64,000 bases of DNA from Halobaculum halobium (GTDB lineage: Archaea > Halobacteriota > Halobacteria > Halobacteriales > Haloferacaceae), in contig NZ_CP126158.1 in assembly GCF_030127145.1 (NCBI RefSeq), positions 2,418,001-2,482,000 on the forward strand, written 5' to 3'. Position numbers and translations under genes: made by a program. Shown here piece by piece: positions 2,452 to 52,647 of this stretch (the stretch's first letter is position 1; each line of letters begins with the position of its first letter). The notes beneath the pieces were generated by a model. That model was not told the DNA's origin. It made no database searches and worked only from the letters and a program-made list of their open reading frames with translations.

Positions 2452-3810
2452 ATGCGGTATGTCGCCCTCCTCGCCGTGCTCGCCGTTCTCGTCTCGTTCG
2501 CCACGGGCGCGACGGCCGCGGCGGCCGTCCAGCCGGTGGAGCCGTCAGCGCTCGCGGATCAGCCCGCCAGCGACGGCGCCGCGCAGGCGATCACGTCCCC
2601 GACAGACAGCGCGTCTCCGCAACTCGCCTCGACCGTCGGCGCGCCGCGAACGAACTTCACGATCTCCCTCCGCGAGGACGGCGATGCCCGGTGGACGGTC
2701 GAAACGAGGATCGCGCTCGACGACGAGAGCACGCGCGACGCCTTCGAAGAGTACGCCCGCTCGTACGAGGCCGGCGACGCGTCGGGCGGCCCCGCGGTCG
2801 ACCCGTTCAGAAACGCCGCGGCCGCCGCGTCCGAAGCCACGGGACGCGAGATGTCGATCGAGCGGGTGAACCGGACGGCCACGCTGTCGAATCAGTCCGG
2901 CGTCCTCCGACTGCGGTTCACGTGGACGCGGTTCCTCGAACCGGGTGACGACGGCGTCCTCGAACTCGGCGACGCGTTCCGAACCCCGAACAACGGCACG
3001 TGGTTCGGGTCGCTGTCCGCCTCCCAGCGGCTCGTCATCGAACCGCCCGCTGACTACGAGGTGAGCGACGTGTCGCAGGGGTTCAGCTACTCGATCAGCG
3101 ACCGTCGGATCGTCGCCGAAGGGCCCCAACAGTTCGGGGCGGATGACATCGCGATCCGCTACGAGCCCGGAGACTCGCCGCCCGACACGTCGTACCTACT
3201 CGAACTGATCGCCGGCGCCGGCGTCGTGCTGCTGTTCGCTGTCGCGGTGTTGGCGTACCGCCGCGGCAACGTCGCCGGCGCCAGATCAGGCGGGGGCACA
3301 GACGGCGCCGCCGGAACGGAAGCGGGACCCAACCAGTCGGGTCAAGCGCCGAGGGGAATGGATGACGGCACCGACGGCGGCTCGGACGGCGTTGACGGCG
3401 ATCGCGAGGAGGGACCCTCGACTGCGCCGTCCGGCCCGGCGACGGATCGCGACGGGTCGGACACGGCTGTCGCCGGCGGAGCCGCCGCGGGCGACGGACC
3501 GACCGAAACCCCAAGCGACAGTGGAGGCGGTAGCGGCGAGGACGCCGCCACCGAGCGTGAGGAAGACCTGGAGCTCCTGTCGGACGAAGAGCGCGTCGAG
3601 CGGCTGCTTGGCGAGCACGGCGGCCGGATGCGCCAAGGGACGATCGTCGACGAAACCGGTTGGTCGGACGCGAAGGTGTCCCAGCTGCTGTCGGCGATGG
3701 CCGACGACGAGCGCGTCGAGAAGCTGCGGCTCGGTCGCGAGAACATCATCTCCCTGGCTGACGGCGACGACGCAGGCGACGAGACCGGCGCCGACGCCGA
3801 GTCGTCGTAG
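2452..3810 (+). CDS. Membrane-anchored winged-helix (HTH) protein with exported sensor domain
   Basis: This 452-residue protein has three parts. A signal peptide (residues 1-22) is followed by an exported domain of about 220 residues (FTISLREDGDARWTVETRI at its start). A single membrane helix at about 251-272 (LLELIAGAGVVLLFAVAVLA) comes next. A long acidic, Gly/Ser-rich cytoplasmic linker leads to a winged helix at about 373-440 (RVERLLGEHGGRMRQGTIV, then DAKVSQLLSAM). The topology suggests a one-component transmembrane regulator that reads an outside signal and binds DNA while still in the membrane. The ATG at 2452 is preferred because it starts directly at the signal peptide. It belongs to a haloarchaeal group of DUF-plus-HTH membrane proteins; ligand and targets are unknown, and the divergent secreted gene is the first candidate target. 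Confidence 0.75.
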   Translation: MRYVALLAVLAVLVSFATGATAAAAVQPVEPSALADQPASDGAAQAITSPTDSASPQLASTVGAPRTNFTISLREDGDARWTVETRIALDDESTRDAFEEYARSYEAGDASGGPAVDPFRNAAAAASEATGREMSIERVNRTATLSNQSGVLRLRFTWTRFLEPGDDGVLELGDAFRTPNNGTWFGSLSASQRLVIEPPADYEVSDVSQGFSYSISDRRIVAEGPQQFGADDIAIRYEPGDSPPDTSYLLELIAGAGVVLLFAVAVLAYRRGNVAGARSGGGTDGAAGTEAGPNQSGQAPRGMDDGTDGGSDGVDGDREEGPSTAPSGPATDRDGSDTAVAGGAAAGDGPTETPSDSGGGSGEDAATEREEDLELLSDEERVERLLGEHGGRMRQGTIVDETGWSDAKVSQLLSAMADDERVEKLRLGRENIISLADGDDAGDETGADAESS

Positions 3811-51786: not shown

Positions 51787-52055
51787 CGAACCGCCTTTTA
51801 CGAGGGCCTCGCGCTCTCCGGGCGCTCAATCCCGCCAAAACCCGTTCATGCGGTCGGATTCGAAGAACCCGACTGCTAAGCAGAATCGCGGAGCGATTCT
51901 GATGACGATCACAAGATCGCTCGTTCGGTCGCTTCGCTCCCTCACTTGCGGTATAACTGCTGGTACCGTCCGCACCGCTACCGCTCCACCGCGACCGCAC
52001 CGCGACCGCGTCCGTACCGCCTCCGAGCCGTCCCCCGACACGGATTCGATCGACG
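51787..52055. other. Intergenic region, no gene seen
   Basis: The 301 bases between the glycosyltransferase and the halocyanin gene contain no credible coding frame. A perfect hairpin AGAATCGC-GGA-GCGATTCT spans 51882-51900, about 100 bases after the stop, followed by a 'tcgctcgttcggtcgcttcgc' type haloarchaeal spacer and a run of 'ccgcaccgct/accgcgaccgc' repeats at about 51970-52010. Confidence 0.4.
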
Positions 52056-52063
52056 GATATAGG
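52056..52063 (+). promoter_or_regulatory. TATA element for the halocyanin gene
   Basis: GATATAGG is centred about 28 bases before the ATG at 52088, so the interrupted gene keeps an intact-looking promoter. Confidence 0.5.
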
Positions 52064-52087: not shown

Positions 52088-52647
52088 ATGGAAGACGACA
52101 CGCTCAGCCGCCGGGGCTTCATCCGGGGGCGGCGGGCGCGACCGCCGCCGCGGGCGCGGTCGCGACGGGCGCCGGAACTGCAGCCGCACAGGCGACCGCC
52201 GACGGCGAGGGAACCGTCGAGGTCGGCGCCGGGAGCGACGGGCTGAAGTACACGCCGGGAACCGACGAACCGCTGTACGTGACGCCCGGGACGACCGTCA
52301 CGTTCGACTGGGTCTCCGACGGTCACAACGTCCTGTTCGACCAGAATCCCGGGGACGTCTCCGGCCACGAACCCCTTGAGGACGAGGGGTTCTCATTCGA
52401 GGTGACGTTCGAGACGACCGGAACATACGAGTACTACTGTGACCCGCACCGGTCGCTCGGGATGGTCGGGACCGTCGAAGTCGTCGAACAGCTCCCGACG
52501 CCGACGCCGCAACCCGCTGGCCCGCCGGAGGTCCCCGACTCCGCGAAGAGCCTCGGCATCGCCTCCTTCATCGCGATGGTGTCGACGCTCGGCCTCGCGT
52601 TCTTCTTCACGAAGTACGGCGGCGACTACGAACCCCCGGAACAGTAA
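52088..52647 (+). pseudogene. Halocyanin-type blue copper protein, frameshifted in its Tat signal
   Basis: The ATG at 52088 opens a twin-arginine signal (MEDDTLSRRGFIR). In that frame the next residues become Arg/Pro-rich and stop at 52246. From the run of five G at 52125-52129 onward, the +1-of-codon frame reads AAGATAAAGAVATGAGTAAA, the expected hydrophobic part of the signal, and continues to 52647. The mature part has the copper ligands: His in SDGHNVLF, then Cys and His in YYCDPHRS and Met in LGMVG. A C-terminal membrane helix (LGIASFIAMVSTLGLAFFF) and a short tail follow. Removing two G restores a protein of about 185 residues. The mutation may be real, phase-variable or a sequencing error. 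Type I copper proteins shuttle electrons to terminal oxidases. Confidence 0.8.

Follow-up and report, generated by a model that had tools for sequence, protein, structure and literature searches.

A halocyanin gene of Halobaculum halobium split within its Tat signal, probably by a base missing from the assembly

Introduction

The halocyanins (TIGR03102, PF00127), copper electron carriers common among halophilic archaea, combine a Tat signal with a plastocyanin-like cupredoxin domain, in which the copper ligands follow the pattern His...Cys-x-x-His...Met, and they are attached to the membrane. All of these features are shared by a gene of Halobaculum halobium that lies in the window analysed here, a stretch of 64,000 nucleotides (NZ_CP126158.1, positions 2,418,001 to 2,482,000). 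It differs from the described family in scoring below the TIGR03102 cut-off, in using a C-terminal transmembrane helix as its anchor, and in a reading frame that is interrupted in the assembly. Closer counterparts are found within the genus: the intact orthologs of H. gomorrense DSM 9297 (L009/L024) and H. saliterrae (L010/L026) have the promoter element, the Tat signal, the domain, the anchor and the synteny in common with the window gene. They carry six Gs (or GGGGTG) within the signal, have a single open frame and lack a gene-converted core, whereas the window gene has five Gs.

Does the interruption belong to the organism or to its assembly? Assemblies built from long reads only are reported to retain mainly errors in homopolymer length (PMC8812927). 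As described in this and a second report (PMC8812927, PMC12007338), the residual one-base deletions of long-read assemblies resemble those of the genome studied here in being isolated, in lying in GC-rich coding sequence, in affecting genes that are otherwise intact, and in accompanying a lower completeness. The likeness has a limit, in that only some of the deletions described below fall in homopolymers.

Results

The ATG at 52088 (+) opens MEDDTLSRRGFIRG, after which its translation turns into Arg/Pro-rich nonsense and ends at a stop after 52 codons. The frame of 52090 (+) reads GAAGATAAAGAVATGAGTAAAQATADGEGTVEVG... through to the stop at 52645-52647, and carries GAAGATAAAGAVATGAGTAAAQATADGEG..., the cupredoxin domain and the C-terminal hydrophobic anchor. 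The switch between the two falls within CGGGGGCGG, at its five Gs (Table 1). An alternative start for the downstream frame was considered and rejected, as no in-frame ATG, GTG or TTG occurs upstream of 52279, a position already inside the domain. Translation of both frames and direct reading of the tract thus confirm what a sequence-only reading of this DNA had described, namely a signal and a mature part in different frames (52088-52647) with the break at GGGGG. The same reading had called the promoter intact, which agrees with a TATA-box-like element, GGATATAGG, centred about 29 bp upstream of the ATG and conserved among the Halobaculum orthologs (11 of 11) with the consensus GGATATA[GC]G. 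Its spacing would fit a leaderless haloarchaeal transcript.

Table 1. Features of the halocyanin locus, in positions of the window
Feature	Position	Strand	Basis
TATA-box-like promoter element GGATATAGG	52055..52063	+	direct reading; kept in 11/11 Halobaculum orthologs
Beginning of the Tat signal, MEDDTLSRRGFIR, with start codon and twin-arginine part	52088..52126	+	orthologs MEDDTLSRRSFIRGAAGATA in frame
Five-G tract, six in congeners; site of the frame break	52125..52129	+	direct reading and ortholog comparison
Hydrophobic Ala/Gly remainder of the Tat signal, read in the other frame	52129..52206	+	translation and orthologs
Cupredoxin domain with intact copper-ligand pattern GHN ... YYCDPHRSLGM	52207..52494	+	PF00127, TIGR03102, PDB plastocyanins
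Probable gene-conversion tract from the paralog G000:C1:2561766-2562236 (L033)	~52285..52490	+	identity mosaic and shared deletion
Membrane anchor at the C-terminus, SAKSLGIASFIAMVSTLGLAFFFTKYGGDYEPPEQ, with hardly any variation in Halobaculum	52545..52644	+	ortholog alignment

The downstream frame matches Pfam PF00127 Copper-bind above the gathering score (E=4.7e-15) as well as plastocyanin chains of the PDB. Its match to the NCBIfam halocyanin domain TIGR03102 (E=2.4e-18) reaches 66.2 bits against a curated cut-off of 93.8, making the protein halocyanin-like but leaving it short of assignment to that domain subfamily. The predicted type 1 copper ligands, His, Cys, His and Met in GHN and YYCDPHRSLGM, are conserved with the orthologs and align with the PDB plastocyanins; both this pattern and the membrane anchor are kept in the downstream frame, and differences are biased to third positions. 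The earlier identification of a membrane-anchored blue copper protein was right. Judged from its family, the protein would presumably act as an electron carrier on the outer side of the membrane. In Halobonum tyrrellensis G22 (L017, NZ_ASGZ01000020.1, ~2830-3099), a Tat signal of similar style and a near-identical anchor, SAKSLGVASFIAMCATLGLAFFFTKYGGDYEPPEEE, are found with no cupredoxin domain between them.

The sequence-only reading had pointed to orthologs in sister strains as a means of judging the break. We compared ten Halobaculum genomes with that of the window (11 species in all). An ortholog with 79-88% protein identity is present in each of the ten, and nine are in frame, starting with M(E/D)DDTLSRR(S/N)F(I/L)RGAAG; seven have six Gs, and two have a tract of equal length with a synonymous interruption, GGGGTG (G008) and CGCGGAG (G004). 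The orthologs thus show an ancestral tract of six Gs, or of the same length with an interrupting base, leaving the window gene short of one base. Tat signal and domain, joined in one frame in the orthologs, are separated in the window assembly by this single position. The event is accordingly a one-base contraction and not the two-base change that had been proposed; and of the two tract lengths named as restoring the frame, three and six Gs, only six agrees with the orthologs.

The tenth congener, H. litoreum DT92 (G003, NZ_CP126156.1), has five Gs at the tract as well. A tree calculated from 52.8 kb of aligned syntenic DNA places it as the sister of G005 and groups the window species with G007 and G008, both with a support of 1.000. 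As the two species are not sisters, their contractions are independent; a five-G state shared by descent was rejected, since G005, G007 and G008 are all in frame. In the other genera of the family, nothing comparable to the tract is seen except in one ortholog (L090, CGGGGGGTC) that uses similar codons and is in frame. Of the 19 orthologs checked from other genera, 18 are in frame and open with a twin-arginine start; the start of L106 was not recognised by the simple rule applied.

How common are such deletions in this genome? The assembly (3.46 Mb, 3 contigs) has a completeness of 95.2%, versus 97-99% in most of its sisters. In the 60 kb of the window comparable with five relatives, no species-specific frame-changing indel occurs other than that of the halocyanin tract. 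A background sample of 462 kb, of which 339 kb were comparable with three relatives, contains seven further species-specific coding frameshifts, all of them one-base deletions. The phase of the mismatches moves by one codon position across all seven sites, four of which pass a strict threshold, as expected for deletions inside genes that are otherwise under coding constraint. The background of about 2.5 per 100 kb outside the window, a rate that rests on about 340 kb, leads to 1.5 expected in the window, where one is seen. In each of two sisters, G007 and G004, three indels were counted, and none of these falls in clearly coding sequence. Deletions like that in the halocyanin gene are therefore found elsewhere in the window genome, including in a gene expected to be indispensable, and are absent from the sisters.

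In the sample, conserved G/C homopolymers of this genome agree with those of the relatives in 64 of 65 runs of five, in 7 of 7 runs of six and in the single run of seven, so that undercalling is rare and not general; several of the deletions lie in a mixed G/C context, and only some in homopolymers. We also considered that a strong hairpin might have led to the tract being misread, and dismissed this, the DNA fold having a z of only -1.5. The assembly of H. litoreum DT92 is worse, with 27 species-specific frame-changing indels in 317 kb, both insertions and deletions, and a completeness of 85%. Its complete-genome record (L054-L058, L169-L187) should not serve as evidence for pseudogenes.

Genes split in the window genome were checked by tblastn with strict filters. 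Its only match to pantoate kinase, an identity supported by a family match, is divided into two frames by a one-base deletion (C1:2138933-2139792; L188, L189). Pantoate kinase, an archaeon-specific enzyme, belongs to the archaeal CoA pathway and takes the place of the bacterial route in most archaea; Thermococcus disruptants of its gene reportedly show no growth without added CoA (PMC6650551). A real deletion is therefore hard to accept, and the split of this gene is very likely an assembly error. One-base deletions also split a threonine synthase-like gene and a second one which we take to be isocitrate lyase/PEP mutase-like; in each, both halves are otherwise intact. In a further gene near C1:2296668, FAU-1-like by our own reading of its sequence, six Gs have likewise become five, with about 90% identity to the ortholog on both sides.

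Discussion

What can be concluded about the five-G tract? We consider it probable that an otherwise ordinary halocyanin gene carries an uncorrected one-base deletion in the assembly. The gene differs by one base from its in-frame orthologs, in a genome with a background of one-base coding deletions, one of which affects its sole recognisable pantoate kinase gene; it is these similar losses in other genes, the only pantoate kinase included, that favour an assembly error, and the deletion in the halocyanin gene would be one more of them. The public assembly would then lack one G of a six-G tract as one of its residual single-base deletions, while in the cell MEDDTLSRRGFIRGAAGATAAAG... is most likely produced from a single frame. 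The product would be an ordinary Tat-exported, C-terminally membrane-anchored halocyanin, a blue copper electron carrier, encoded by a gene that is probably intact. Among the three options of the sequence-only reading, sequencing error is thus the best supported, through the background deletions and the split pantoate kinase. Under pure error, finding one and the same tract shortened in two independent assemblies is a mild coincidence, which favours either tract-specific instability or tract-specific error.

Ranking second, although unlikely, is a real and recent loss of function, in which one G was truly lost and the absence of the halocyanin is tolerated via other halocyanin-like genes. The genome provides about ten matches to the gene in all, including an apparently whole paralog (C1:2561766-2562236), a six-G tract is a plausible site of slippage, and H. 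litoreum has independently arrived at the same state. However, the gene shows no second lesion, with its ligand pattern and anchor kept and its differences third-position-biased; the ortholog has been retained in 11 of 11 species; and similar one-base deletions occur in genes that should not be dispensable.

The third option of the sequence-only reading, phase variation, would have the tract alternate in the population between six Gs, with the exported electron carrier on, and five or seven, with the carrier off. Two phylogenetically separate species with five Gs at the same tract would suit such a switch, as would a location near the 5' end, typical of switching tracts (PMC2831843). Yet the frequency of slippage grows with tract length (PMC2831843), and six Gs are short and ordinary here, where 62 kb of the window hold nine runs of six and four of seven G/C. 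No other length classes were seen, and CGG GGG GCG simply follows from Arg-Gly-Ala in a high-GC genome. Nor is the tract maintained in the species group: its synonymous interruptions in two congeners (G004, G008) argue that no selection acts to keep it, and the orthologs of other genera do not preserve it. Given the short tract, its interruptions and its absence in other genera, the suggestion has found no positive support, and we regard it as improbable. A related idea, in which the six Gs in the Tat signal are a true slippage hotspot of Halobaculum halocyanins, by which the same exported copper electron carrier was turned off independently in two species and may switch reversibly, appears very doubtful to us; nothing speaks positively for a hypermutable tract except the five-G state of H. 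litoreum, whose assembly is itself rich in frame-changing indels. If the break were real, and that of H. litoreum too, this would suggest that haloarchaea can switch an electron carrier through a homopolymer. Searching the literature on halocyanin frameshifts, we found nothing relevant.

Recoding at CGG GGG CGG, either by programmed -1 frameshifting of the ribosome or by slippage in transcription, would yield the full protein from the five-G gene; by inspection, a -1 slip of GGG on GGG would give FIRGAAG, the same peptide as from the six-G gene. This is highly improbable and was rejected because the frame break is not conserved and a stimulatory fold is lacking: the gene is in frame in 9 of 11 species, the two five-G states arose independently, and the RNA downstream, which begins with no spacer of the usual kind, shows no more folding than its shuffled versions (z 0.07).

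More generally, before a frame break in a single high-GC archaeal assembly is claimed as a pseudogene or as phase variation, it should be set against the background of one-base deletions in that same assembly.

The one true biological oddity of the locus lies in its copper-binding core. This segment is 0.80-0.91 identical to the paralog, which is found about 92 kb downstream of the window gene, versus 0.69-0.85 to the G007 ortholog, and in the flanks the relation is reversed, with 0.74-1.00 to the ortholog and 0.44-0.75 to the paralog. In addition, a two-codon deletion is common to the core and the paralog. Gene conversion between the paralogous halocyanins explains this mosaic best; as a conversion from the paralog, it would indicate that the window gene has recently been functional.
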